From positions 1 to 64,000 of the forward strand of contig JACCXK010000049.1 of the NCBI GenBank assembly GCA_013697055.1: 64,000 bases of DNA, read 5' to 3'. Below the pieces are notes generated by a model, which saw nothing but the letters and a program-made list of their open reading frames with translations, ran no database searches and was not told the DNA's origin. Of the stretch, positions 1,553-55,002 are shown piece after piece; position 1 is the stretch's first letter, and each line of letters opens with the position of its first letter. This DNA comes from Alphaproteobacteria bacterium (lineage in GTDB: Bacteria > Pseudomonadota > Alphaproteobacteria > Micropepsales > Micropepsaceae). The translations under genes were made by a program, and so were the position numbers.

Positions 1553-3055
1553 ATGAGAAAACTCGCCGGCGCGTTGAGCCTCCTGCTCGTGCTTCCCGCC
1601 GCGGCGCAAGACGCGCCACACGCAAAAGTCGCCCAGGGCGAACTGGCGGGCTTTTCCGATCGCGGCGCCGAGGCTTACCTGAACATTCCCTTCGGCGCCG
1701 CGCCGGTGGGCGATTTGCGCTGGAAGGCGCCTGCTCCGCCGCCTGCCTGGGGCGGCGTGCGCGACGCCACCAAATTCGGTCCCGCCTGCATCCAACAGGA
1801 CGCCAAGCCCAGCGCGCCCTGGGCCATAGAATATTATGTCCTGCCGCCTTACAGCGAAGACTGCCTGAGCCTGAACGTCTGGACGTCCCCCGGAAAAAAC
1901 AAGGCCGTGGCGCTGTTCATTCCCGGTGGCGGCTTTTCGCAGGGCGGCGGCGGCGTGCCGATCTATAACGGCGCACAGATGGCCAAGTCGGACATCGTCT
2001 TCATCACCATGAATTATCGCCAAAGCGCGGCAGGCTTTCTCGCCCATCCCGAGCTGGCGGCGGAGTCCGCCGGCCACGCCTCCGGCAATTATACCTTGAC
2101 GGACGTGCTGGCGGCGCTGCGCTGGATCAAGGCCAATGCCAAATCGTTCGGCGGCGATCCCGCCAAGGTGACGGTGATGGGCCAGTCGGCGGGGGCCGCC
2201 GCCATTGTCGCCCTGCTGCAATCGCCTTTGTCCAAGGGCCTGTTTCGCGCCGCCATCATCGACAGCGGCGTTCAGGCCGGCGTCCGCTTTGCTTCCAATG
2301 AAGCGCACGAAAAGGTCAGCGCCGACTGGGCGGCGAGCCGCGGCGCGACCACCCTGGCGCAGCTACGCACCCTGCCCGCGGAGGCGCTGGTGCCGGTGCG
2401 CGGACAGAATTTCCGCTTCGGGCCCTCCATCGACGGCCATGTGATGCCCGCTTCGGGTGCGAATGTGATGGACGTGCCGGTGCTGACGGGGTGGAACGCC
2501 GGTGAAGGGTCGGTGGGTGGCGGCCGGCTGTTGACCTCGCCGGTCCCCCGCACGGAATTCGAGAAACAGAACCGCTCGCGCTGGGGTATCGCCAACGAGA
2601 TATCGGCGCTGTATCCGTCAGGCGAGGACGCGCGGGAAGCGGCACAGCAATCCGGCCATGACGCTCTGATGATGAGCGGCGCGGCCTGGGCGGCGGGGCG
2701 CAAGAGCCCGGTCTATTATTATGACTTCGAGCACGTGATGCCGGGCGCCGAAGCCGCTCCCTATGGCAGCTATCATTCCTCGGAGCTGCCTTATGCGCTG
2801 GACTCGCTGCACACATTGAACCGGCCCTGGACCGAAGCCGATTACAAGGTCTCGGCCCTGACCCAGGCCTATTGGGTGAATTTCATCAAGAGCGGCAATC
2901 CCAATGGCGGCCAAAACAGCAAATATGCTCTGCCCCAATGGGCGCGGTTCGATCCGGCGGCGAATGATGTGATGGCGCTGGGCGCCACGCCGCATATGCG
3001 GCCGATCACGGAGAAAGCGCGCGCTGAGGCCTGGCTGCGCGCGATTTCCCGCTAA
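1553..3055 (+). CDS. Exported type-B carboxylesterase
   Basis: 500 residues with a signal peptide (MRKLAGALSLLLVLPAAAQ), so it is probably periplasmic or secreted. It is an alpha/beta hydrolase of the carboxylesterase/para-nitrobenzyl esterase family. The oxyanion-hole loop GGGFSQGG is near residue 125, the nucleophile elbow GQSAGAAA places the catalytic Ser at about 212, and the late SYHSSELPYA carries the catalytic His. EDCLSLNVW is the family signature. The start at 1553 follows AAGGGG; it overlaps no essential part of the VOC gene stop at 1542. The natural ester substrate is unknown. The stop overlaps the stop of the convergent next gene by four bases. Confidence 0.85.
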   Translation: MRKLAGALSLLLVLPAAAQDAPHAKVAQGELAGFSDRGAEAYLNIPFGAAPVGDLRWKAPAPPPAWGGVRDATKFGPACIQQDAKPSAPWAIEYYVLPPYSEDCLSLNVWTSPGKNKAVALFIPGGGFSQGGGGVPIYNGAQMAKSDIVFITMNYRQSAAGFLAHPELAAESAGHASGNYTLTDVLAALRWIKANAKSFGGDPAKVTVMGQSAGAAAIVALLQSPLSKGLFRAAIIDSGVQAGVRFASNEAHEKVSADWAASRGATTLAQLRTLPAEALVPVRGQNFRFGPSIDGHVMPASGANVMDVPVLTGWNAGEGSVGGGRLLTSPVPRTEFEKQNRSRWGIANEISALYPSGEDAREAAQQSGHDALMMSGAAWAAGRKSPVYYYDFEHVMPGAEAAPYGSYHSSELPYALDSLHTLNRPWTEADYKVSALTQAYWVNFIKSGNPNGGQNSKYALPQWARFDPAANDVMALGATPHMRPITEKARAEAWLRAISR

Positions 3056-3285
3056 CTGGTGGTGCCGCTGGTCGAGGGTGTGATGTTGTTGTTGTCGGTG
3101 GTAGAGGCAACCACGGCGATCACAGCCGCTACCGCCACAATACCCGCAACCAGCAGCACGCCGCCGGCTTCGATCTGAGCCTGTTTGGTGCCGGCGGGCT
3201 TGCCGGGCGTCAGTGCGCCATCGGCCGCAAAGGCGCTGGAAAAACACATGGTCATGGCAACAAGAGCCGCACCGATCGCGCGCAT
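3052..3285 (-). CDS. Small exported YjbE/GfcA-like peptide, orphan copy
   Basis: 77 residues: signal peptide (MRAIGAALVAMTMCFSSAFA), a short linker with GALTPGKPAGTKQAQIE, a hydrophobic Val/Ala segment, then an Asn/Thr/Ser tail (TTDNNNITPSTSGTTS). It is clearly related to the gene at 47212-47451, which shares PxGKPAGxKxAQxE and the same overall plan. That plan, about 80 residues ending in a Gly/Thr/Ser-rich tail, resembles E. coli YjbE/GfcA of the exopolysaccharide operons, although the resemblance is architectural and was recalled rather than aligned. The ATG at 3285 is preferred over an upstream TTG because GGAG lies six bases before it. This copy sits alone, far from the capsule locus. Confidence 0.7.
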   Translation of the reverse strand: MRAIGAALVAMTMCFSSAFAADGALTPGKPAGTKQAQIEAGGVLLVAGIVAVAAVIAVVASTTDNNNITPSTSGTTS

Positions 3286-9113: not shown

Positions 9114-11207
9114 ATGCGGCCTTCGATTCTGTTTCCCCTGTTCGCCGAGATCCGCACCCTGTCCGGGGTGGGTCCCAAGCTGGAAAAACTGATCCAGAAG
9201 GTGGCCGGGCCTCGGCTGGTGGATCTGGTGTTCGATTTGCCAGTGGGGGTGGTGGACCGCTCCTACCAGCCCAGGCTGGCAGCGGCCGAGCCGGGCCGGA
9301 TCGCCACCGTGGCGGTGACGGTACTGGAGCATCGCGCGCCCCGCGTGAAATCCCAGCCCTATAAAGTGATGGTGTCGGACGACACCTCGCTGATGGAACT
9401 GGTGTTCTTTCGGGCACATGCCGATTACCTGGCCAAGCAGTTGCCGGTGGGCGAGAAGCGCGTGCTGTCGGGCCGCATCGAACGTTTCAAGGATCGGCTG
9501 CAGATGACCCATCCCGATTATGTCGTGGCGCCGGAGGACATCGCATCCTTTCCACTGCACGAACCGATCTATCCGTTGACCGAGGGACTGACGGCGCGGC
9601 CGATGGCCAAGGCGGTGCGGGGCGCGCTGGAAAAAGTACCGGCGATGCCGGAATGGCAGGACCCGGCCTTTGTGAAGCAGCGCAAGTGGGACGGGTTCGT
9701 CGCGGCGCTGGAAATTGCGCATGGCCCGGCGCATCACAGCGATCTTCAGCCCAGCACTCCGGCGCGCCAGCGGCTGGCCTATGACGAGTTGCTGGCCAAT
9801 CAACTGGCGCTGCTGTTGATCCGCGCCAATCTGCGCGGCGGCAAGGGCCGGGTGATCAGCGGCACGGGCAGGTTGAAAGCCAAGGCCATCGCCGCCCTGC
9901 CCTTCACCCTGACCGATCCGCAACTGGCGGCGCTGGCGGAGATCGAACAGGACATGGCCTCCGAGAAGCGCATGTTGCGGCTGCTGCAAGGCGATGTCGG
10001 CTCCGGCAAGACCATCGTAGCGCTGCTGGCGATGCTGAAGGCGGTGGAAGACGGGCTGCAGGCGGCACTGATGGCGCCCACCGAACTGCTGGTGCGCCAG
10101 CATCTCGCCTCACTGGAACCTTATGCGGCAGCGGCCGGGATACGGCTGGCCTGCCTCACCGGACGGGAAAAAGGGCTGGTGCGCGAAACCACCTTGGCGA
10201 AACTGGCGGCGGGCGAGATCGACATCCTGGTCGGCACCCATGCGTTGTTCTCTGAAGACGTCACCTTCAAGGATCTCGGGCTGGCGGTGGTGGACGAGCA
10301 GCACCGCTTCGGCGTGCACCAGCGCATGCAATTGCAATCCAAAGGCAAGCCGGCGGATGTGCTGGTGATGACCGCAACGCCCATCCCGCGCACTTTGGCG
10401 CTGACCGCCTATGGCGACATGGATGTGTCCAAGATTACCGGCCGGCCGCCCGGCCGAAAGCCGGTGGAGACTCGGGTGATGGGTGCCGCCCGCATGGACG
10501 ATCTGATCACCCATCTGCGCACGGCACTGGACCGTGGCGCGCGCGCCTATTGGGTCTGTCCGCTGGTGGATGAGTCCGAAAAGATCGATCTGGCCGCCGC
10601 CCAGGAGCGCGCCGTGATGCTGCGCCAGGCCTTGGGCCTGAATGCCCCTCATCAAATAGGGCTGGTGCACGGCAAGATGAAAGCCACCGAGCGCGATGCC
10701 GCGATGACTGCATTCAAAACCGGTGAGACTCAGCTTCTGGTCGCCACCACGGTGATCGAGGTCGGCGTGGACGTGCCGGAGGCCACCATCATGGTGGTGG
10801 AACACGCCGAACGCTTCGGCCTGTCGCAATTGCATCAATTGCGGGGCCGGGTCGGGCGCGGCAGCGGCAAATCCAGCTGCATCCTGTTGTGGCATGAGCC
10901 GCTGGGCGTCACCGCCAAGGCAAGGCTCAAGACCATGCGTGAAACCGATGATGGTTTTGTCATTGCAGAAGAAGATCTGCGCCTGCGCGGGCCGGGCGAA
11001 GTATTGGGCAAACGCCAAAGCGGGATGGAGGAATTCCGCATGGCCGATCCGACGGCGCATGCCGACCTGCTGGCCGTGGCGCATGACGATGCGCGCCTGG
11101 TGCTGGCGCGCGACCCGGATCTCAAATCCCAACGCGGCGATGCCCTGCGGGTACTGCTCTACCTGTTCGGGCGCGACGAAGCCGTGCGCTACCTGCGCAC
11201 GGGATAA
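9114..11207 (+). CDS. recG: ATP-dependent DNA helicase RecG
   Basis: 697 residues, full length. RecG remodels stalled replication forks and Holliday junctions. The N-terminal part has the wedge/OB domain (LSGVGPKLEKLIQKV at the start), then Walker A GDVGSGKTIVA near residue 292 and the DEQH box VVDEQHRFGVHQRM near 392. The helicase C domain carries LHQLRGRVGRG, and the C-terminal region has the conserved LRLRGPGEVLGKRQSG. It starts at the first ATG after the divergent spacer; no strong ribosome site is seen. It ends just before a strong hairpin terminator. Confidence 0.97.
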   Translation: MRPSILFPLFAEIRTLSGVGPKLEKLIQKVAGPRLVDLVFDLPVGVVDRSYQPRLAAAEPGRIATVAVTVLEHRAPRVKSQPYKVMVSDDTSLMELVFFRAHADYLAKQLPVGEKRVLSGRIERFKDRLQMTHPDYVVAPEDIASFPLHEPIYPLTEGLTARPMAKAVRGALEKVPAMPEWQDPAFVKQRKWDGFVAALEIAHGPAHHSDLQPSTPARQRLAYDELLANQLALLLIRANLRGGKGRVISGTGRLKAKAIAALPFTLTDPQLAALAEIEQDMASEKRMLRLLQGDVGSGKTIVALLAMLKAVEDGLQAALMAPTELLVRQHLASLEPYAAAAGIRLACLTGREKGLVRETTLAKLAAGEIDILVGTHALFSEDVTFKDLGLAVVDEQHRFGVHQRMQLQSKGKPADVLVMTATPIPRTLALTAYGDMDVSKITGRPPGRKPVETRVMGAARMDDLITHLRTALDRGARAYWVCPLVDESEKIDLAAAQERAVMLRQALGLNAPHQIGLVHGKMKATERDAAMTAFKTGETQLLVATTVIEVGVDVPEATIMVVEHAERFGLSQLHQLRGRVGRGSGKSSCILLWHEPLGVTAKARLKTMRETDDGFVIAEEDLRLRGPGEVLGKRQSGMEEFRMADPTAHADLLAVAHDDARLVLARDPDLKSQRGDALRVLLYLFGRDEAVRYLRTG

Positions 11208-42591: not shown

Positions 42592-42691
42592 GCGCGATCC
42601 GGAAAATCGGAATCGATTTTCCGGTAAATTGCGCGACAAAGCAAGAATCTAGCGAATGATCCGATTTCAAAGAAATCGGATCATTCGCTAG
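42592..42691. repeat. Double palindromic intergenic repeat, possible bidirectional terminator
   Basis: Directly after the GguC-like stop is CCGGAAAATCG-GAAT-CGATTTTCCGG (42599-42624), flanked by GCGC on both sides. A perfect 19-base stem follows: 42649-42667 pairs with 42673-42691 around the loop CAAAG, and the stem covers the stop codon of the convergent Wzi-like gene. This pair of palindromes resembles dispersed repeats that I know from intergenic regions of Rhizobiales and other alphaproteobacteria. It lies between two convergent genes and could stop transcription in both directions. Confidence 0.7.
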
Positions 42692-44151
42692 AGCGGCGCG
42701 CGCAACGCCACCTCCACCGCCGCGGCAAAGCCGCCATGCGGATAGGGCTGGTTGTCCTGCAGCCGCCCCGCCAGGTCCAGCTTGAAGCCGCGCCTGTCCA
42801 GCATCAGCGGCAGTGACACGCGTGCCTCGGCCTGGTTCAGCGCCACCGGCGGGTCGCTGATGATGTTGCCATGGCCGCGGCGGTTGCCGATGGTGGCGTG
42901 GTGCAGGCTGAGTTCGTAGAAGCGCCCCGCGGCATCGCTCCAGCTTCCTTGCACCGACGCCAGGGTGGAATCGGTATCCAGGCTGAAGCCCAGGGTGCGG
43001 CCGCGGTAGCGCATGCCGTCAGGATACTGGCCGTTGGTGTAGGTGTAGCCATAGATGAAGTTGCCGAAACTGAACGGTGTCCTGGTCGCGATACTGTCGG
43101 CGAATTCCGCCGTCAGCTTCACGGGGCTGCCGGCGGTGGGCACGAGCACGCTGGCGCCGAACAGGTGGCTGGAGCCGGAGCTGCTGGAAAAGGAATAGTC
43201 CTCGTTCATCATCTGGGCATAGACCTGGAACGGGACGCCGCCGAGCAGGCGGCTATATTTGAGTTCGAACGATCCCTCGCCATTGACGTTGTCGGGATGG
43301 TTGGAGAAATCGAAGTTGGTGAAATAATCGCGCAACGGCGAGCAGGGATGTCCCTGGCCGCAGAACTGCTCGGTCTTGGCCGCCGCCAGTTCAAGGCCCG
43401 GCAGCGGGCTGATCGAGAGCCGCGCCCCATTGTAATAAACGTTGGACTGGATCTGCGGCCCGTCGAACTTGGCCAGGAAGAATTCGAACTGCCAGGGACC
43501 AAGCCAGCGCAGCACCGGCCAATGCGAAGGCGCGGTGCTGGAACGCTGGATGCCGATCTGCGGCATGGGACGCGCATTGTTGGAAAGCTGCAGGGTCGAG
43601 ATTTCGCCAGGCCCCCACCAGTGATCGAGATAGCCGGCATAGACCAGCGCGCCGCCGAGCCGGGCGGCAAAATAGGTCCCGTCGGGCATCAGCTTGTTGG
43701 GCTTGGCCCCGAAATTGTTGGTGATGGCGCCCAGCGAAACCCGGCCCGAAAAGATGCCGCTGTTGAGGCTCAGGGAAGCCTGCGCCTGCGCGTCGCCGCG
43801 CCCCATGCCGTCAAAGCCGTAAATCACATCGGACTTGTTGGTGGCGTCCAGATACACGGCGCCGGAAAAGCCCGGCGCGGTCCCGGCATGGGCCAGCCCC
43901 AGCAGCCGGGCGGCGGCGGCGCGCACCGCCGGCGTCTGGCGCGACAGCTCCTGGCTTTCCAGGCTGGAGACAATGGATTGCCAAGGCATCGGCCACTGGA
44001 TGGTGATATCGCGAACCACGCCCGAGGCGTTCAGGAGTTCCAGGTCAGAACGCAGCTGGTTGTCGCCCACCTCGGCCCATGGCGAAGCGGCAGCCGGTGC
44101 TGCCAACAGCAGCGCAAAGATGGCACCCATGCCAAAAGTTCCGGCGCGCAT
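42688..44151 (-). CDS. Capsule assembly Wzi-like outer membrane protein
   Basis: 487 residues with a signal peptide (ending AAPAAA). The mature part has many short alternating strands (FSGRVSLGAITNNF, YAGYLDHWWGPGEISTLQLS, PFQVYAQMMNEDYSF) and ends in an Arg-Ala-Pro-Leu tail after a strand, as expected of a beta-barrel. DHWWGPGEISTLQLSNNARP is the most characteristic segment of the Wzi family, whose members bind capsular polysaccharide at the cell surface. It opens the polysaccharide locus. Its stop codon lies inside the palindromic repeat on its 3' side. Confidence 0.85.
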   Translation of the reverse strand: MRAGTFGMGAIFALLLAAPAAASPWAEVGDNQLRSDLELLNASGVVRDITIQWPMPWQSIVSSLESQELSRQTPAVRAAAARLLGLAHAGTAPGFSGAVYLDATNKSDVIYGFDGMGRGDAQAQASLSLNSGIFSGRVSLGAITNNFGAKPNKLMPDGTYFAARLGGALVYAGYLDHWWGPGEISTLQLSNNARPMPQIGIQRSSTAPSHWPVLRWLGPWQFEFFLAKFDGPQIQSNVYYNGARLSISPLPGLELAAAKTEQFCGQGHPCSPLRDYFTNFDFSNHPDNVNGEGSFELKYSRLLGGVPFQVYAQMMNEDYSFSSSSGSSHLFGASVLVPTAGSPVKLTAEFADSIATRTPFSFGNFIYGYTYTNGQYPDGMRYRGRTLGFSLDTDSTLASVQGSWSDAAGRFYELSLHHATIGNRRGHGNIISDPPVALNQAEARVSLPLMLDRRGFKLDLAGRLQDNQPYPHGGFAAAVEVALRAPL

Positions 44152-45591: not shown

Positions 45592-46470
45592 ATGACCACG
45601 ATAAAACCCGTCCGCAAAGCCGTTTTTCCCGTCGCGGGAATGGGAACCCGCTTCCTGCCCGCCACCAAGGCAGTCCCCAAGGAGATGCTGCCGGTGGTGG
45701 ACAAGCCGGTCATCCAGTATGCGGTGGAAGAAGCCCGTGAAGCCGGGATCGAGCAGTTCGTCTTCATCACCGGGCGCGGCAAGTATGTCATCGCCGATCA
45801 TTTCGACCATGCCTATGAGCTGGAATCGCTGCTGGAAGCACGCGACAAGACCACCGAACTGAACAGCTTGCTGGAGATGCTGCCCAAGAGCGGCTCTGTC
45901 GGATATATCCGACAGCAGCAGCCCCTGGGGCTGGGCCATGCGGTGTGGTGCGCCCGCCATTTCGTCGGCAACGAACCTTTCGCCGTGCTGCTGCCGGACG
46001 ACCTGATGGTGGGCAAGCCCGGCGCGCTGGCGCAGATGATCGCCTCCTACAACCAGGTCGGCGGCGGCATCATCGTGGCGGCGGAGGAAAAGCCGCAAGC
46101 CGAGGTCAAGCGCTATGGCGTGGTCAAGCCGGGCGCGGTGAAGGGCAATGCCACCGAAGTAAAGGGCGTGGTGGAAAAACCCGCCACCGGCACCGAACCC
46201 TCCAACCTGTGCGTGATCGGCCGCTACATTCTGCAGCCCGAGATCTTCGCCATCCTGGACCGCCAGGAACGCGGCGCCGGCAACGAAATCCAGCTGACCG
46301 ACGCCATGGCGCAGATGATCGGCAAGACGCCTTTTCACGCCGTGAAAACCGATTGCGCCCGCTATGACTGCGGCGACAAGGTGGGCTTCCTGCACGCCAA
46401 TATCGCGGTCGGCCTGTCGCGCCCCGACATCGCGCCGCAGCTTTCCGCCATCATCAAGGCGCTGGTGTGA
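45592..46470 (+). CDS. galU: UTP-glucose-1-phosphate uridylyltransferase
   Basis: 292 residues, normal length. KAVFPVAGMGTRFLPATKA is the nucleotide-binding start, PKEMLPVVDKPVIQYAVEEA carries conserved Lys and Asp, and LLPDDLMVGKPG and GVVEKP are typical. It makes UDP-glucose from UTP and glucose 1-phosphate in the cytoplasm, feeding Ugd and glycosyltransferases of the locus. The stop overlaps the GTG start of the YjbF gene, so the two are translationally coupled. Confidence 0.96.
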   Translation: MTTIKPVRKAVFPVAGMGTRFLPATKAVPKEMLPVVDKPVIQYAVEEAREAGIEQFVFITGRGKYVIADHFDHAYELESLLEARDKTTELNSLLEMLPKSGSVGYIRQQQPLGLGHAVWCARHFVGNEPFAVLLPDDLMVGKPGALAQMIASYNQVGGGIIVAAEEKPQAEVKRYGVVKPGAVKGNATEVKGVVEKPATGTEPSNLCVIGRYILQPEIFAILDRQERGAGNEIQLTDAMAQMIGKTPFHAVKTDCARYDCGDKVGFLHANIAVGLSRPDIAPQLSAIIKALV

Positions 46471-47150
46471 GAAAGACAGCGGCGCTGGCGGGCGCTGGCC
46501 TGACGATGGTATGGGCTTTGCTGGCGGCGGGCTGCAGCTCCGGCCAATCCGGCAACACCAACTATTCGCAGTTCCTGCAACTGATACGCCAGAGCTGGGC
46601 GGCGAGCACCGGCAATGTGCGCATCACCCGCGACCAGGCCGCCTCCATTCCGTATGCCTCCATGGGTTACCGCCAGGACGGCGGCAACGAGATGCTGTTG
46701 GTCCTGGGCACCGACAATGGCGGAGAACAGCTCTGGACCTCTTCGGCCAAGGTTGTAATCGTCACCCGCGACGGCCGCATCGTGCGTACCCTGGGGCTGG
46801 AGCATGACCTGTCCGGACTTACCGCGCGTGGTGGTCAGGCGCCAGCGCCGGCCTCGGCAATCACCGCGCCCTTCACCACCACACGGCTGGAGGATTTTCC
46901 GGAGTTGGGCCTGTATGGCGCCATCGTGGTGTGCAACGCCCGGGCCGCCGGCCGCCAGTCCATCAAAATCCTGGACCAGCCCATCACCACCATGCGGGTG
47001 GATGAATCCTGCCGCAGCCGCAAACCCGAATGGTCTTTCACCGACAATTACTGGGTAGACCTGGACAATGGCCGGGTCTGGCGTTCGCGCCAACATGTCC
47101 ATCCCAAGGGCGGGCTGATCGAGACGGAAATCTTCCGTCCACCCGGCTGA
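46467..47150 (+). CDS. YjbF/GfcB family outer-membrane lipoprotein
   Basis: 227 residues. A lipoprotein signal with lipobox LAAGCSS is followed by a short linker and the YjbF domain. ITRDQAASIPYASMGYRQDG, MLLVLGTDNGGEQLWTS and VVIVTRDGRIVRTLGLEHDL are close to the YjbF/GfcB pattern, and the C-terminal half has WSFTDNYWVDLDNGRVWRS. YjbF belongs to yjbEFGH/gfc operons for extracellular polysaccharide. It starts at a GTG inside the galU stop (GTGA). The yjbH relative lies at 52435, and a YjbE-like gene follows on the other strand. Confidence 0.85.
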   Translation: MRKTAALAGAGLTMVWALLAAGCSSGQSGNTNYSQFLQLIRQSWAASTGNVRITRDQAASIPYASMGYRQDGGNEMLLVLGTDNGGEQLWTSSAKVVIVTRDGRIVRTLGLEHDLSGLTARGGQAPAPASAITAPFTTTRLEDFPELGLYGAIVVCNARAAGRQSIKILDQPITTMRVDESCRSRKPEWSFTDNYWVDLDNGRVWRSRQHVHPKGGLIETEIFRPPG

Positions 47151-47160
47151 GACAAAAAAA

Positions 47161-47186
47161 TCGGGAGAGCCTTGCAGCTCTCCCGA
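47161..47186 (-). terminator. Intrinsic terminator of the YjbE-like gene
   Basis: A perfect 10-base stem TCGGGAGAGC / GCTCTCCCGA with a 6-base loop lies between the convergent YjbF and YjbE-like genes. On the minus strand it is followed directly by seven T residues, so it fits a terminator for the YjbE-like gene. On the plus strand no T run follows. Confidence 0.8.
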
Positions 47187-47211
47187 TCCGAATTCAAAAA
47201 AGACGAACCCG

Positions 47212-47451
47212 TTACGGAGTACCCGTGACCGAGCCGGTGGTCGAAGTCTGCACGCCGCCGCCATTGCTGGACGCCGCCAGGCCGATCCCTAGGCCCGCAA
47301 GGCCGAGGCCCGTGACAATCAGGAGAGCGCTGGGGGATTCCATCTGCGCCTTCTTCACGCCGGCAGGCTTGCCCGCGGGAAGTGTAGTCGCCGCAAATGC
47401 GTTCGTCGTCACCAAGCTGGCCGCCAAAATGGCTGCACTGAAAGTCCGCAT
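47212..47451 (-). CDS. Small exported YjbE/GfcA-like peptide
   Basis: 79 residues: signal peptide (MRTFSAAILAASLVTTNAFA), TTLPAGKPAGVKKAQME, a Gly/Leu-rich hydrophobic segment (LLIVTGLGLAGLGIGLAA) and a Gly/Ser/Thr tail (SSNGGGVQTSTTGSVTGTP). It lies between the YjbF lipoprotein and YjbH genes, and its plan matches E. coli YjbE, a small exported protein of unknown role in the same kind of operon. It is a paralogue of the gene at 3052-3285. ATG at 47451 is chosen because GGAG is six bases upstream; an ATG at 47463 is less likely. A strong terminator follows. Confidence 0.75.
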   Translation of the reverse strand: MRTFSAAILAASLVTTNAFAATTLPAGKPAGVKKAQMESPSALLIVTGLGLAGLGIGLAASSNGGGVQTSTTGSVTGTP

Positions 47452-47586: not shown

Positions 47587-47693
47587 ATATCGCTTTTCTG
47601 TCAAATTGTCAGGATCCCCGTTCCTCGTCCGGCAAGGCATCTCAACACATCTCTGATAAGTAGATTCCCGTCTTAAACCGAGTGGCCCCTAAA

Positions 47694-49112
47694 ATGTCCG
47701 CTGTCCATCCCGTCATTCTGTCCGGAGGCTCAGGGTCGCGGCTCTGGCCGCTGTCGCGCAGCCTTTTCCCCAAGCAACTGCTCGCTTTGGCCGGAAAACA
47801 CAGCTTGATTCAGGACACCGCCTTGCGCGCGGGGGGCGCGGATTTCGCCAATCCGCTGATCATCTGCAACGTTGAACATCGCTTCCTGATCGCCGAACAG
47901 ATGCGCGAAGCCGGTGTCTCGCCCGAGGCGATTGTCCTGGAACCGATGGGGCGCAACACCGCGCCCGCCGCCGCCATCGCCGCCCTGATGGTGGAACGCA
48001 AGGATTCCGATGGGGTGCTGCTGCTGATGCCGGCGGACCACATTGTGCGGAACCGTACGGCTTTTCTGGAGGCCTTGGACCGCGCCACCGCCGCCGCGCG
48101 GCAGAATCACCTGGTGAGTTTTGGCATCACGCCTGATTCGCCGGAGACCGGTTACGGCTATATCCGGCGTGGGCCGGCCCTGAAGGGGTTGGAGAAAAGC
48201 TTCCAGGTGGCGCGCTTTGTCGAAAAGCCCGATGCTGCCACCGCCGCCGGCTATGTCGCCTCGGGCGACCATGACTGGAACAGCGGCATGTTCGTTTTCA
48301 AGGCCGCCACCTTCCTGGCCGAACTGGAAAAGCTGGAGCCTGAACTTCTGGCGCATTGCCGCGCTGCGCTGGACGGCGCCAAGGGCGACCTGGATTTCCT
48401 GCGGTTGGAAGCGGGTGCTTTCGCCAAGGCCAAGTCCATCTCCATCGACTATGCCGTGATGGAACGCACCGACAAGGCGGCGGTGGTGCCGGTCGAAATG
48501 GGTTGGAGCGATATCGGTTCCTGGGAATCACTTTGGAGCGTGGCGGAGCGCGACGGTAGCGGAAATGCCGTGAAGGGCGATGTGCTGCACCATGGCACGA
48601 AGAATTCCTATCTGCGGAGCGAAGGTCCGCTGGTGGCGGCAGTGGGTGTCGAAGACCTGGTGGTGGTCGCCACCCCGGACGCCGTCCTGGTCAGCCACAA
48701 GAGCGCCTCCCAGGACGTCAAGCGGATCGTGGAGCAACTGGAGAAGTCAGGACGCGAACTGCACAACACCCATCGCAAGGTCTATCGACCCTGGGGCGCC
48801 TATGAAGGCGTCGACGCCGGCGACAATTTCCAGGTCAAGCACATCACCGTGAATCCGGGCGCCAAGCTGTCGCTGCAGATGCATCACAAGCGCGCCGAAC
48901 ACTGGATCGTAGTGTCCGGTACCGCCCAGGTGACTTGCGGCGACAAGGTGTTCGCGATGCGCGAAAATGAATCCACCTATATCCCGCTGGGCTCCAAACA
49001 CCGGCTGGAGAATATGGGCCCCGAGCCGCTACACCTGATCGAGGTGCAATCGGGTTCCTATCTCGGGGAGGACGATATCGTCCGCTTCGAAGATACCTAC
49101 GGACGCAGCTAG
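47694..49112 (+). CDS. manC: Mannose-1-phosphate guanylyltransferase / mannose-6-phosphate isomerase
   Basis: 472 residues, bifunctional ManC/AlgA/XanB type. The N-terminal pyrophosphorylase has VILSGGSGSRLWPLSRSLFP (nucleotide loop) and PKQLL, with FVEKPD and YAVMERT further on. The C-terminal 120 residues are the cupin isomerase: RPWGAYEGVDAGDNFQVKHI and LQMHHKRAEHWIVVSGTA with the metal His residues. It provides GDP-mannose for Gmd and Fcl downstream. No phosphomannomutase gene is in the window. ATG at 47694 is chosen over GTG at 47682. Confidence 0.95.
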   Translation: MSAVHPVILSGGSGSRLWPLSRSLFPKQLLALAGKHSLIQDTALRAGGADFANPLIICNVEHRFLIAEQMREAGVSPEAIVLEPMGRNTAPAAAIAALMVERKDSDGVLLLMPADHIVRNRTAFLEALDRATAAARQNHLVSFGITPDSPETGYGYIRRGPALKGLEKSFQVARFVEKPDAATAAGYVASGDHDWNSGMFVFKAATFLAELEKLEPELLAHCRAALDGAKGDLDFLRLEAGAFAKAKSISIDYAVMERTDKAAVVPVEMGWSDIGSWESLWSVAERDGSGNAVKGDVLHHGTKNSYLRSEGPLVAAVGVEDLVVVATPDAVLVSHKSASQDVKRIVEQLEKSGRELHNTHRKVYRPWGAYEGVDAGDNFQVKHITVNPGAKLSLQMHHKRAEHWIVVSGTAQVTCGDKVFAMRENESTYIPLGSKHRLENMGPEPLHLIEVQSGSYLGEDDIVRFEDTYGRS

Positions 49113-49119
49113 ACGCGTC

Positions 49120-52100
49120 TTACTGCTTCGCCAGGATGGCCAACGAGGCAGCCGTGACCGCAAACGAACTGAGGATGCCTGTAACGTCCAGCAGAATTTG
49201 GCGCGCGGTAAGCGGCGCCAGGTCGCGCGGCACCACGATGGAGCTGCCGGGCGGCAGGCTCTGGGCGTCGAAATTCAGCCACGACGTCTCCACGCGGCGC
49301 GCCGAGCCGTCAGGTTGGACGACGAAGGTCAGGTCGTCGTCCGAGAATTGCGCGTAACCGCCCGCCCGCTTGATGTAGTCGCCGACGGTCAGGCCCGGGC
49401 GATAACTGTAGCTGCCCGGCTGCATGACTTCGCCCAGTACGGTGACGGTGGAGGGACGCTGCGGGATGAACACCACGTCGCCGGCTTCCAGCAGCGGATC
49501 CAGTTGCGGATTGGCCGCCAGCACGCTCGGATCGGCAGTTAGCGCGATGCGGCCCAGGCCCTTCTGGGTGCGCAACTGAGTGATGAAACCCTGAATGGCG
49601 GTGTAGCCTTCGCCGGTGATCTTGTCGCTGCCGATGCGCGCGATGCCCGCGAGCAACTGGCTCTGGATTTCAGAGGCGGCGCGATTATAGCCTTCTTCCT
49701 CCAACTGGGCCGCGGACTTGCGCAGAAAGACCGTGCCCTGCGGATAGGCCGTGCTGGTCAGCCCACCGGCGCGCATCAGCAATTCGGACAGATGCTCGCC
49801 GCGGCGAATGGGATAATTGCCGGTGAAGCGCACTTCGCCCTGGATGGTGATGGAGCCGGCGCCGACTTCGGTGAAGACCTTGTTGAAGTGAATCTGGTCG
49901 CGCGGACGCACGACATAGCTGACCAGGGTGCCCTGGCGCAGCGGCAATGTCTGCCGCTGGCTGGCGGCGCGGCCGGAGCGGTTGTCCACCGCGGTGGTCA
50001 GAAGCTCCACGCCGCTTTCGTCCGCCCAGCTCACCGTGCCGCCGCCGGCCTGGACCAAATCCGCCAGGGACACGCTGGGGCCAACCAGATAGGTGCCGGG
50101 CCCACGCACCGCGCCGTCGAGGCGGGCGCGATGGTCGATCAGGAAGTTGACCATCACCAGCGGGTCGACACCCAGTTGGCGCGTGAACTCGCCAAAGGTG
50201 TGGGCTTCACGGTTGGTGGCGAAGTCGCCCTGCTCGACCGGCTGGTCCTGGAAATTAGCCGCTGGCGGGAGTGGCTTCTTGTTCGGGCCCAACTGATCCT
50301 GCTCAAACTGCGAGGCCCCGGACGCCTCCTGGTTCTGGTTGGGGGGTTGTTGCTGCTGCGGAACCGCAGGCGTGCCATAGGGCGATGGCGCCGCCTGCAA
50401 GGGCGTTCCGGTTTGTGACGCGACCAGGGCAGCCTGCTGTGCCTGTGCCGACTGGATCGGGCTCTGGGCGCCGCCGCCGGCCGTGCCGCTGCCATTGGCG
50501 GTGATCAGCGCCTGCTGATATGCCTGTTGGCGCATCAGGGCGTTCAAGGTACCGGGCGCAGCGGTGTGCAGGAGCGCGATAATGTTGCTGCGCTGGATGT
50601 CCGCCGGAACGCCGCTGAAATCTTCAACGTCCAAGCCGTTGGCCAGGGCTTCATCCGGTGAAAGACCGAAGGGGTTGGCAGGTGAAACCGCGCTGGCCAC
50701 GGCCACCTGCGCCGCGGCAATGGCCGCCGGCGAAGCCGCATTGCTGCTATTACTGGCATTGCTGGCCGGCCCCGACGATTGGGACGCCGCTATGGCCTGG
50801 GCGCGGTTGGTGGCAAGAGGGTTGCGAATGCGCGACTGATCCAGCGCCAGCTTGTCGAGATAGGTCTTGACGATAAAGCTCAGAAGCTGCGCTTCATCCA
50901 CGGAAATCGGCCGGATAATGTCGTCACTCTGAGTCTGCTGGTCTTCAGTGCCGTTCAGCACCGCCACCGGCGTAAAAGCGACCAGGCTTCTGAGCAGGGT
51001 GCGAGGATCCTTGCGGACGATGATGCCGAACAGGGTATAGGGACTGGCGCCAAGCGCGCCGGGCGCGCGAATAACGTCCGACAGTTTCGTGCCGCCGGTG
51101 ACGGCATACTGGCCCGCGATGCCCGAGCCGCCGGACAGCGTCGCCTGCGCGCCCTGCAGATCGGCGCCGAGTTCTACGCGCAGGATTTCGCTGTCGCGCA
51201 CCACGCCGCCCTGGGCCGGCAAGGCAACAAGATTGAGACGGCCATCGGCCTCAATGCGCTGGACCGCGAGGCGGTAACGCCCGCGTACTTCCTGTCCGCC
51301 CGCCAGCGCCAGCAGGTTTCGCGCCGATATGCTGGCGGCATGGGGCGGAAGCTCATAGATGCCAGGACGGCGCACCAGGCCGGCCACCGCCACGGTGGCG
51401 CCAAGCGGCGCCACGACGATGCGGTCGCCATCGGCCAGGCGCATGCTGGCGCCGCTGCCGCTGCCGGTCAGCACACTGTAAAGATCGATATTGTAGACGC
51501 GGCCGCCGCGATCCAGCCGGATGCGTCGCAGGGTTCCGGCCTTTCTGATGCCGCCCGAAAGCAGAATGGCGTCCACAACCGAGGACAAGCCCGTGACCAA
51601 CCGGGGGCCCGGCGCATTGACCTCACCTGAGACCAGAACGCTGATCTGGCGCACGCGGCCGATCGAGGTGGAGGCGGTGCTGGCGACATAGGCGCGATGC
51701 ACCGCCGCTTCGACATCCTGGCGGAAGCCGCCGAAGCTGCGCCCGGAAGCGGGGATCGGCGCCAAGCGCGGCAGCACGACATTGCCGTCGCGTCCCACCA
51801 CACTGCGGAAATCGCTGTTCTCCTGGCCGCGCAGCGACACGGCAATTTCGTCGCCGGGCCCGAGAATATAATCGTCCTGCACCGCTCCGGTTTCCGGAAC
51901 GGTTACCGGTTGGCCGCTGCCGAGTTGGTCATATCCGAACTGCTGCAAGCGCATGCCGGCGCGCGCGGAGAGAATCTGCTCCAGCCGCGACGTCGGCAGC
52001 GGGCGCAGAAGCTGCATGTTCTGCTGCGGCTGAAGGGTCTGGCCTTGTCCGGGCGTGGACTGCGAATTTCCTGTCCCGCTATTGTTGCCGCCGATGTTGG

Positions 52101-52338
52101 CGCCGCCTAGCAAGCCGCCGAGCCCGCCGCTCTGGCCGCCACGCAGTTGTTGGAGCAGATCGGCGCCAGAATTCTGCGCAAGGCCTTCTCCGGGGAGCGC
52201 CATCCAGCCTATGGCCGCAAGCACAAAGGGCGCGACAAACCCCGCCACGGAGGCGCTGGGGCGGCGGCCCCTCCCGCCGGACTTTTTCGGTATTAGCACT
52301 TGGGAACGTCCCGGTTCGACAGGGCCGTGGTCTAGCAT
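49120..52338 (-). CDS. Very large polysaccharide export protein with SLBB domains
   Basis: 1072 residues, about three times the length of Wza. An N-terminal hydrophobic signal (about 30-55) precedes low-complexity Gly/Gln/Asn sequence. The poly-export domain starts near 150 (DYILGPGDEIAVSLRGQ) with SLBB repeats after it (ISVLVSGEVNAPGPRLVTG, VAVAGLVRRPGIYELPP). A Gln/Asn/Pro/Ala-rich stretch covers about 520-700, then SLBB units follow (DGAVRGPGTYLVGPSVSL, ITIQGEVRFTGNYPIRRGEH, VTVLGEVMQPGSYSYRPGLT). The C-terminus is a hydrophobic helix (ILSSFAVTAASLAILAK), possibly an outer-membrane helix as in Wza. It should form the channel for the polymer. Divergent from yjbH. Confidence 0.88.
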   Translation of the reverse strand: MLDHGPVEPGRSQVLIPKKSGGRGRRPSASVAGFVAPFVLAAIGWMALPGEGLAQNSGADLLQQLRGGQSGGLGGLLGGANIGGNNSGTGNSQSTPGQGQTLQPQQNMQLLRPLPTSRLEQILSARAGMRLQQFGYDQLGSGQPVTVPETGAVQDDYILGPGDEIAVSLRGQENSDFRSVVGRDGNVVLPRLAPIPASGRSFGGFRQDVEAAVHRAYVASTASTSIGRVRQISVLVSGEVNAPGPRLVTGLSSVVDAILLSGGIRKAGTLRRIRLDRGGRVYNIDLYSVLTGSGSGASMRLADGDRIVVAPLGATVAVAGLVRRPGIYELPPHAASISARNLLALAGGQEVRGRYRLAVQRIEADGRLNLVALPAQGGVVRDSEILRVELGADLQGAQATLSGGSGIAGQYAVTGGTKLSDVIRAPGALGASPYTLFGIIVRKDPRTLLRSLVAFTPVAVLNGTEDQQTQSDDIIRPISVDEAQLLSFIVKTYLDKLALDQSRIRNPLATNRAQAIAASQSSGPASNASNSSNAASPAAIAAAQVAVASAVSPANPFGLSPDEALANGLDVEDFSGVPADIQRSNIIALLHTAAPGTLNALMRQQAYQQALITANGSGTAGGGAQSPIQSAQAQQAALVASQTGTPLQAAPSPYGTPAVPQQQQPPNQNQEASGASQFEQDQLGPNKKPLPPAANFQDQPVEQGDFATNREAHTFGEFTRQLGVDPLVMVNFLIDHRARLDGAVRGPGTYLVGPSVSLADLVQAGGGTVSWADESGVELLTTAVDNRSGRAASQRQTLPLRQGTLVSYVVRPRDQIHFNKVFTEVGAGSITIQGEVRFTGNYPIRRGEHLSELLMRAGGLTSTAYPQGTVFLRKSAAQLEEEGYNRAASEIQSQLLAGIARIGSDKITGEGYTAIQGFITQLRTQKGLGRIALTADPSVLAANPQLDPLLEAGDVVFIPQRPSTVTVLGEVMQPGSYSYRPGLTVGDYIKRAGGYAQFSDDDLTFVVQPDGSARRVETSWLNFDAQSLPPGSSIVVPRDLAPLTARQILLDVTGILSSFAVTAASLAILAKQ

Positions 52339-52434: not shown

Positions 52435-55002
52435 GTGAAGGGACGGGCGCCGTTACCCGGCAGCGGACATACCGCCGCCCGGCGCACGGGCCGGAAAGCG
52501 GCCCGCCGGACCGCGGCTGCGGGATCTACCCTCCTCGCCGTCCTTTTCCTGGCCAGTCCCGCCCGGGCGCAGGAACCCGCCGATCCCGCCAACCTGTTCG
52601 GCGGACGCGGGGTGATCGGAACACCCAGCGCGCGCATGGCCCCGGACGGGGAATTGTCCGTCGGCGCCAGCTTTCTGAAAAACAATCAACATTACAATTT
52701 CGGCTTCGAGGTTTTGCCCTGGCTGGAAACGACCTTCCGCTATTCCGGATTACAGCATTTTCAGAAGGATTATCCCGTCTATTACGACCGCGCCTTTGGC
52801 GTGAAGGCGCGACTGTGGGACGAAAGCGGCCCGTGGCCGGCCGTGGCGGTGGGCATCGACGATGTCATCGGCACCGGCGTCTATAACGGTGAGTATGTCG
52901 TCGCCTCCAAGCGGTTCGGCGACGTCGATACCAGCATCGGCATGGGCTGGGGCCGTCACGCGGGCACGGCAGAACTGCGCAATCCCATCGCGCTGGTGAT
53001 CAAGTCCTTCGACCAGCGCCAATCCTTTTTCGGCCAGGCGGGCGGCGCCGACTTCAAGGCCTTCTTCCACGGCCACAATGTCGGCGTGTTCGGCGGCGCG
53101 GTGTGGCACACTCCGTTCGAAGGCCTGTCGCTGATGGCCGAGTATGACAGCGACAACTATTCGCAGGAAAAAGCCTTCGGCAACTTCTCGCCCAGGAGCC
53201 AGATCAATTACGGCCTCGCCTACAACATCTCCGACAGCGCCCTGCTCGGGCTTTATTGGCTTTACGGCAGGAGCGTCGGCGGCAACTTCTCGCTGCGGCT
53301 CGATCCGGTGCATGAGCAATATCCGCAGAAGTTCGAACCGCCGCCCCCGCCCGTGGCCGAACGCAGCGCCGAACAGCAACGCGCGGCGCTGGCCTCGCTC
53401 CTGGGGCAGCGCGATCCGATCAATGCGGTCAACATCAGATTGATGGATGCCCGCAACGCGGACCGCAATGATTTCGTCGATGCCCTGTGGCGGCAGGGCG
53501 GCGATTATGCCGACATCCAGGTCCGGCAAAGCATGCTCGACCTGACGGTGACGGGCACCGTTTCCAGCACGCGTTGCGCTGCCACCGCGCGGCTGATGCA
53601 GGGCGTGGCGGCGCATATCGATCGTGTCCGGCTGCACGACCCGGAGGCAAGGCGCAGCGTGTCCTGCGCCGTGCCGCGCACGGTGGAAGGTGCAGCGGTC
53701 AGCGCCGCCTTCCTGTCCACCGCCAATCTTAAGCTCCTGGCCCTGCCGGTGGTGCAGACCATCGATGCCTCCGATGTCACGCCCGTGATCGACCTCAAGC
53801 AGGCGATGCGCAATATCAGGACGGCGCTGACCGAGCAGCATCTTGTGGTGGAAGCGCTGTCGCTGGGCGCTGGCGACTTGGTGCTTTACTACCGCAACAA
53901 CCATTACTTCGCGGAAACCGACGCCATCGACCGGATCGTGCGCGTCCTGACCAGGGAAGCGCCGCCCGATGTCGAGAAATTTCGCCTGATCGCCATCTAT
54001 GGCGGCATTCCCCAGCAGGAATTCGACGTCCTGCGCGGCCCGGTAGAACGCAGCGCCTCGCAGAACAGCGGCGAGATTTGGGACAAGTCGGTCAGCCTGG
54101 TCGTACCGCCGATGGACAATCCGGTGCTGGCAGCGGCGGGGCGCGAAACCTATCCCCGGTTCAGCTGGGGCATCTACCCGCAACTGCGCCAGGCGCTGTT
54201 CGATCCCAACCAGCCGTTCGGCGTTCAGCTTCTGGCGGCCGCGAATGCGGGCCTTGAGCTGGCGCCTGGGCTGAGCGTCAGCGGCTCGCTGGAAGTCAGC
54301 CTGTATGACAATTTCGACACCACACGCACCAGCGACAGCGCCTTGCCGCATGTGCGCAGCGACTTCCTGAAATACTTCAATGCCGGCAAAACCGGCATCG
54401 GCCATCTGGAGATGGACTATCGTTTCCGGTTTTCACCCACGGTCTATGTGTCGGCGCGCGCCGGCTATCTCGAAAGCATGTTCGCCGGCGCCGGTGGCGA
54501 GATCCTGTGGCGGCCGGAAGGCGCACGCTGGGCGCTGGGCGCCGACCTCTACCAGGTATGGCAGCGCGATTTCGACAGGCTGGTTGGACTGCAGCACTAT
54601 CATGTGACCACCGGCCATGTGTCGCTCTACTACGCCTCGCCCTGGTATGGCCTGAATTTCCAGTTGCGCGCCGGACAGTATCTGGCAGGAGACCGCGGCT
54701 TCACCTTCCAGGTGACGCGGCGCTTTTCGACCGGCGTCGAGATCGGCGCCTTCTTCACCAAGACCAACGTGCCGGCCAGCCAGTTCGGCGAAGGCAGCTT
54801 CGACAAGGGCATCATCATCCGGCTGCCGCTGGGCTGGGTCGCGCCGCTGGAAACCCAGAGCCAGATCGTCATGGATCTGCGGCCCGTGCAGCGCGACGGC
54901 GGCCAGACACTGTTGGGCGATGCGAACCTGTTCGAAGAAAGCCGCCCCACCAGCGAAGGTGAACTGCTGCTGCGAGAACCTGAGCTGCAGAACGCCAATT
55001 GA
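52435..55002 (+). CDS. YjbH family outer membrane protein for exopolysaccharide export
   Basis: 855 residues. After a signal peptide (LLAVLFLASPARA) the N-terminal part reads NLFGGRGVIGTPSARMAPDG and VGASFLKNNQHYNFGFEVLP, the standard start of YjbH proteins. Many amphipathic strands follow, and the C-terminal region (SLYYASPWYGLNFQLRAG, FQVTRRFSTGVEIGAFFTKT, FDKGIIIRLPLGW) is a beta-barrel of the kind seen in E. coli YjbH/GfcD. It starts at GTG 52435 after a divergent spacer of 96 bases shared with the SLBB gene. The mechanism of YjbH proteins is not settled; a role in polymer passage or modification at the outer membrane is inferred from the operon. Confidence 0.88.
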   Translation: MKGRAPLPGSGHTAARRTGRKAARRTAAAGSTLLAVLFLASPARAQEPADPANLFGGRGVIGTPSARMAPDGELSVGASFLKNNQHYNFGFEVLPWLETTFRYSGLQHFQKDYPVYYDRAFGVKARLWDESGPWPAVAVGIDDVIGTGVYNGEYVVASKRFGDVDTSIGMGWGRHAGTAELRNPIALVIKSFDQRQSFFGQAGGADFKAFFHGHNVGVFGGAVWHTPFEGLSLMAEYDSDNYSQEKAFGNFSPRSQINYGLAYNISDSALLGLYWLYGRSVGGNFSLRLDPVHEQYPQKFEPPPPPVAERSAEQQRAALASLLGQRDPINAVNIRLMDARNADRNDFVDALWRQGGDYADIQVRQSMLDLTVTGTVSSTRCAATARLMQGVAAHIDRVRLHDPEARRSVSCAVPRTVEGAAVSAAFLSTANLKLLALPVVQTIDASDVTPVIDLKQAMRNIRTALTEQHLVVEALSLGAGDLVLYYRNNHYFAETDAIDRIVRVLTREAPPDVEKFRLIAIYGGIPQQEFDVLRGPVERSASQNSGEIWDKSVSLVVPPMDNPVLAAAGRETYPRFSWGIYPQLRQALFDPNQPFGVQLLAAANAGLELAPGLSVSGSLEVSLYDNFDTTRTSDSALPHVRSDFLKYFNAGKTGIGHLEMDYRFRFSPTVYVSARAGYLESMFAGAGGEILWRPEGARWALGADLYQVWQRDFDRLVGLQHYHVTTGHVSLYYASPWYGLNFQLRAGQYLAGDRGFTFQVTRRFSTGVEIGAFFTKTNVPASQFGEGSFDKGIIIRLPLGWVAPLETQSQIVMDLRPVQRDGGQTLLGDANLFEESRPTSEGELLLREPELQNAN

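Follow-up and report, generated by a model that had tools for sequence, protein, structure and literature searches.

The locus studied here raises the question of why a small gene with no polysaccharide neighbour should closely resemble another one which is placed in a capsule locus, and what the two of them may be doing. Both are found in a stretch of 64,000 nt, which we will call the window, in the genome of an uncultured alphaproteobacterium. They are ORFs on the minus strand, a detail that the original prediction had left unmentioned; with the stop codon included they occupy positions 3052–3285 (77 aa) and 47212–47451 (79 aa), as checked by ORF search and translation. Their products are MRAIGAALVAMTMCFSSAFAADGALTPGKPAGTKQAQIEAGGVLLVAGIVAVAAVIAVVASTTDNNNITPSTSGTTS and MRTFSAAILAASLVTTNAFAATTLPAGKPAGVKKAQMESPSALLIVTGLGLAGLGIGLAASSNGGGVQTSTTGSVTGTP, respectively. 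The general layout is a signal-peptide-like start, a short G-x-(P/A)-A-G linker, one hydrophobic Gly/Ala-rich segment and a largely uncharged Ser/Thr/Gly/Asn tail. In the 3052 gene (P0002) the linker is GKPAGTKQAQIE, followed by the hydrophobic helix and a Thr/Ser/Asn tail. The original prediction had attributed to both products a signal peptide, a hydrophobic region and a tail of Thr, Ser and Gly; the last two features, after a start that resembles a signal peptide, are indeed seen in both. A BLASTP comparison of the pair gives E 2e-10 (single comparison), with 46% identity across 46 aa. Their global alignment score is 112.5; segment-wise shuffles, in which the composition of signal peptide, linker, helix and tail is retained, have a mean of 39.5 and a maximum of 92.5, so that none out of 3000 is as high. 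On these alignments the two products are homologous.

Two other resemblances had been proposed. The first one was the segment PxGKPAGxKxAQxE: the part GKPAG-x-K-x-A-Q-x-E is common to both products, but the leading P-x is out of register (TPGKPAG in one case, PAGKPAG in the other). The second one was the leader GGAG-6-ATG, which is real in both genes but nothing special: it is also present in 15 of the 154 ATG genes scored and is therefore an ordinary Shine-Dalgarno sequence, too generic to be retained as a signature of the peptide family. We also searched for a shared promoter motif by enumeration of 10-mers in 12 upstream regions of family copies, and nothing exceeded the shuffles. A palindrome, TGACAAWTTGTCA, is found upstream of two family members (47599–47611 in the window; positions 10335–10347 of contig C105 of the same genome) and is a possible operator. 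The genome has seven such sites at one mismatch or less, and two genes closely related to the 47212 gene retain the palindrome near -160. It is not counted as evidence, since it was chosen after the sequences had been seen.

As had been predicted, only the 47212 copy (P0003) is found in a polysaccharide locus. It adjoins a gene of the YjbF/GfcB group 4 capsule lipoprotein family (46467–47150, plus strand, PF11102 E 6e-35), the only YjbF of the genome, which ends 61 bp away from it: the two genes are convergent, tail to tail. A terminator-like hairpin with a T run lies downstream of the peptide gene, at about 47150–47190. Divergent from it there is a ManC-type mannose-1-phosphate guanylyltransferase/isomerase (47694–49112, plus strand). 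Then come an OPX protein for polysaccharide export, which carries several SLBB domains (49120–52299, minus strand), and the YjbH/GfcD outer-membrane double-barrel protein (52435–55002, plus strand, PF06082 E 7.8e-182), also the only copy of its genome; the YjbF and YjbH homologues are thus both inside the capsule locus of the window. A Wzi-like capsule assembly protein is encoded at 42688–44151 (minus strand, PF14052 E 6.4e-52). Other members of the locus are a nucleotidyl transferase, a Wzy/ligase, a GDP-mannose dehydratase, an epimerase and acyltransferases, together with a weak Wzz match. As a side observation, five SLBB stretches are recognised in the OPX protein, and its C-terminal end matches the N and C domains of GfcC weakly and in co-linear order (E 0.068 and 0.0013, below the cut-off); this export protein may carry a fused GfcC-like domain.

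The peptides are not restricted to these two genes. A dispersed family had been suggested and a genome-wide search had been called for: the protein search has found 11 clear full copies in this genome, and a profile search, which matches the 3052 gene with E 1.7e-26, has added a divergent one (C164:79827–80009), which makes 12. All of them have the signal-peptide-like start, the linker, the hydrophobic segment and the polar tail. The genome (G000) has 3.77 Mb in 256 contigs, with a listed completeness of 97% and a contamination of 2.3%. One family copy is found in a region (L062, C156:1–16000) with a GC content of 0.579, compared with about 0.63 elsewhere, and with poor codon scores; this region may have been acquired or may be an artefact of binning. 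In the genus, peptide copies are present in 45 of the 69 genomes, with 1–12 copies each (0–12 over the whole genus). Where close relatives occur in named records, these records are uncultured MAGs, and several of them apparently come from lakes or ponds, to judge by their isolate names. In a sample of 385 genomes of the class, matches outside the genus are few and weak. Small proteins of other Alphaproteobacteria (L121, L122) have the same layout, a putative signal peptide with one hydrophobic segment and a polar tail. They differ by the absence of the GKPAG linker, reach an E of only 1e-5 to 8e-5 per genome and are at most putative relatives; two further class-wide matches (L123, L124) appear unrelated and were set aside. 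In sum, YjbE/GfcA-like peptides have expanded in this genus.

This name requires some justification. YjbE is the Pfam family matched by the largest number of members: 12 out of 40 match it at E up to 1, with a best E of 5.7e-6. However, no individually scored member reaches the curated PF11106 cut-off of 27.9 bits. The best one has 23.6 bits, the 47212 product 14.9 bits and the 3052 product no listed match. For this reason we speak of YjbE/GfcA-like peptides and not of members of PF11106. In a profile comparison the likeness that had been proposed stands above reversed and shuffled controls: with an HMM of Enterobacteriaceae YjbE, 22 of 52 members exceed 10 bits (the best one at 32 bits), against 1 of 260 segment shuffles and none of 52 reversed sequences. 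In the reverse search the family HMM recovers ten of ten YjbE sequences at 18–28 bits, with shuffles at 11 at most; GfcA is absent from its matches. The features which align with YjbE are G-x-(A/P)-A-G, the small-residue helix, a turn (ASGNG/ATGGGDG) and the Thr tail. The profile scores, together with synteny, support a remote homology of the family to YjbE; positional equivalence to YjbE is supported for the 47212 gene only. A YjbE-like protein from another class of the phylum (L145, genome G645), below the Pfam cut-off, scores 29.6 bits with the family HMM, at the top of the set from outside, and looks intermediate between YjbE and the genus family.

The E. coli counterparts may be compared in detail. 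YjbE (PF11106), from the yjbEFGH exopolysaccharide operon, also has about 80 aa, a signal peptide (a putative one in the genus peptides), a G-x-A-A-G linker, a small-residue hydrophobic segment, a Gly/Asp turn and a Thr-rich tail, and yjbF adjoins its gene. It differs in having GEAAG in the place of GKPAG: where the genus has KPAG, the YjbE proteins of Enterobacteriaceae show the motif as G[E/D/A]AAG, and Lys-Pro is therefore not universal. A recognition or attachment site, as had been proposed for KPAG, is at most a hypothetical role of this segment. In addition, yjbE is the first gene of a co-directional operon, whereas the 47212 gene is convergent with yjbF, and the genus has up to 12 copies with a more hydrophobic helix. 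GfcA, from gfcABCDE-etp-etk (group 4 capsule), shares the presumed signal peptide, a hydrophobic Gly/Ala/Val segment, an AND-SGDGG turn, the Thr/Ser tail and an adjoining gfcB. It has an extra Thr-rich stretch ahead of the helix and no G-x-P-A-G linker, and its operon is co-directional, unlike the genus pair. The yjbF/gfcB neighbourhood holds for the 47212 copy but fails for the 3052 gene and the other dispersed copies.

The convergent pair of peptide and YjbF is found in 28 genomes (this one and 27 others), with 18–519 bp between match ends; in 8 of the 30 YjbF loci read in detail there is no adjoining peptide. There are 19 genomes with a single peptide copy. In 15 of them it is the one paired with YjbF; in two it lies 11–13 kb away and in two it is weak and on another contig. 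The YjbF-paired copy is thus probably the ancestral one and the others duplicates, which is the parsimonious reading. The peptide tree has few resolved forks, but YjbF-adjacent and dispersed copies fall apart in it: 4 changes suffice, against 14.8 when shuffled. Among near-complete genomes 29 have the peptide and YjbF/YjbH, 4 the peptide only, 2 the Yjb proteins only and 13 neither (Fisher p 1e-6, relatedness ignored). The four exceptions (G001, G006, G015 and G075) have 2–4 peptide copies each, while YjbF and YjbH are undetected; for this reason the dispersed copies probably act also independently.

The dispersed copies have quite different neighbours, among them a carboxylesterase, a phosphodiesterase, RlmJ, an MFS transporter, PQQ dehydrogenases, an FkbM methyltransferase, a GidA-family protein and a TonB receptor. 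No polysaccharide neighbour is common to them in the flanking genes. At least six copies are found at the same location in other species, as judged by flanking genes: the 3052 gene, two on C231 and those on C43, C93 and C164. The 3052 gene had been described as an orphan. This is right as regards polysaccharide neighbours, but it is a positional orthologue rather than a stray copy: its place is conserved in three other species (G016, G012/RYN_537 and an Erken MAG). The esterase which flanks it is unmatched in G016 and G012/RYN_537, and the phosphodiesterase is unmatched in the Erken MAG; the gene therefore appears to form no unit with either neighbour. Two dispersed copies (C93:18.3–20.5 kb and C43:19–21.4 kb of G000; L056, L061) adjoin PQQ quinoprotein dehydrogenase genes, and a similar pairing is present in another genome (L126). 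We have not retained this association: the two genes are among about 24 that flank family copies, the genome has 30 PQQ matches in all, and the excess is small, post hoc and uncorrected.

What could these peptides do? The reading which we prefer, with a probability of about 40%, is that they are small envelope proteins, exported by Sec and with their helix in an envelope membrane, which serve polysaccharide export or anchoring, the dispersed copies being variants. The peptide would be cleaved after A-x-A and its helix would insert or self-associate in an envelope membrane, so that the linker or the tail could meet surface polysaccharide. The peptide would assist GfcB/YjbF and the double barrel of GfcD/YjbH in exporting or anchoring the polymer, and it may itself be glycosylated or carried along. 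The dispersed copies would be transcribed as units of their own, adding variations on this role in the envelope and depending on YjbF/YjbH in part at most. This role is suggested by the pairing with YjbF in 28 genomes and the co-occurrence with YjbF/YjbH, by the similarity to the YjbE profile, and also by purifying selection, conserved positions and the split in the tree. It agrees with published work: gfcABCD/yjbEFGH have been assigned to the production of capsule or EPS, and a computational study backs GfcD as the exporter of a lipid-anchored polymer, while calling GfcA entirely uncharacterized (PMC11494523). It has been speculated that GfcA, which is rich in Ser/Thr, receives O-antigen as a modification and leaves the cell through GfcD (PMC8592465). 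In E. coli, overproduction of colanic acid and resistance to sedimentation accompanied an insertion of IS1 between yjbE and yjbF (PMC8117528), which may act via YjbF or Rcs.

Against a polysaccharide role we have the four near-complete genomes mentioned above, the eight YjbF loci with no adjoining peptide, the scores below the PF11106 cut-off and the lack of shared polysaccharide neighbours. An alternative which we regard as nearly as probable is that only the YjbF-adjacent copy serves capsule export, while the dispersed ones are membrane peptides with a single helix whose role, structural or in stress, has nothing to do with polysaccharide. Those same four genomes and the unrelated, unshared neighbours of the dispersed copies are in its favour. 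So is the strongly hydrophobic helix: over 19 residues the Kyte-Doolittle value is 2.95 for the 3052 copy and 1.24 for E. coli YjbE. However, the linker motif and the tail are conserved alike in dispersed and YjbF-adjacent copies, and the presence of the family tracks YjbF/YjbH across the genus.

Structural data give limited guidance. The signal-peptide-like start and the A-x-A site were recognised by eye, with a helix at 2–22 in a low-confidence model. AlphaFold predicts the signal-peptide helix, one further helix and disordered ends, with a mean pLDDT of 59.9, too low for a fold search; a search of solved structures with the peptide gave no match. The net charge is +1 for the linker and 0 for the tail, which does not discriminate between the possible topologies. 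If the helix were to stop transfer once the signal peptide has been cleaved, the Ser/Thr tail would lie in the cytoplasm, out of reach of surface glycan. It is unlikely, in our opinion, that a single capsule-locus peptide has become up to 12 dispersed, separately transcribed surface peptides which present or anchor polysaccharide by their Ser/Thr tail; in the literature searched we found no description of a multi-copy protein-glycan anchoring system of this kind.

Also unlikely is secretion through the N-terminal barrel of YjbH/GfcD, with self-assembly outside as a fibre-like or matrix component. By fold recognition that half of GfcD/YjbH resembles the amyloid transporter FapF (PMC9603273), and the hydrophobic segment is rich in small residues and followed by a polar tail. 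On the other hand the AlphaFold model has a helix rather than strands (at low confidence), a repeat structure is absent and some genomes have peptides but no YjbH. Small, exported, hydrophobic and multi-copy peptides could also be bacteriocins or toxins, but this is very improbable: no recurrent immunity-like partner is found among the flanking genes, the copies have been conserved for long at fixed positions, and there is the tie to YjbF. Finally, untranslated chance ORFs, which the short and low-complexity frames might suggest, are essentially refuted by the codon scores (16.5 and 23.6, the latter for the 3052 gene), the Shine-Dalgarno sites, the conservation of the frame in 45 genomes and Nei-Gojobori dN/dS values of 0.01–0.46, below 0.5 in all nine pairs. 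For the 3052 gene and its positional orthologues these values are 0.46 and 0.43, for the 47212 gene 0.10–0.41; they indicate that the frames are translated and constrained by purifying selection.

The observation from which we started is correct and larger than stated. The module for polysaccharide export to which GfcA and YjbE belong is widespread, and these two are its uncharacterised members; a genus with 0–12 natural copies offers comparative evidence on which residues matter. The copies retained in genomes with no detectable YjbF/YjbH suggest a role of the peptide beyond the capsule operon. Most dispersed copies tested have retained their chromosomal position in other species, and this provides a handle on the role of these peptides.
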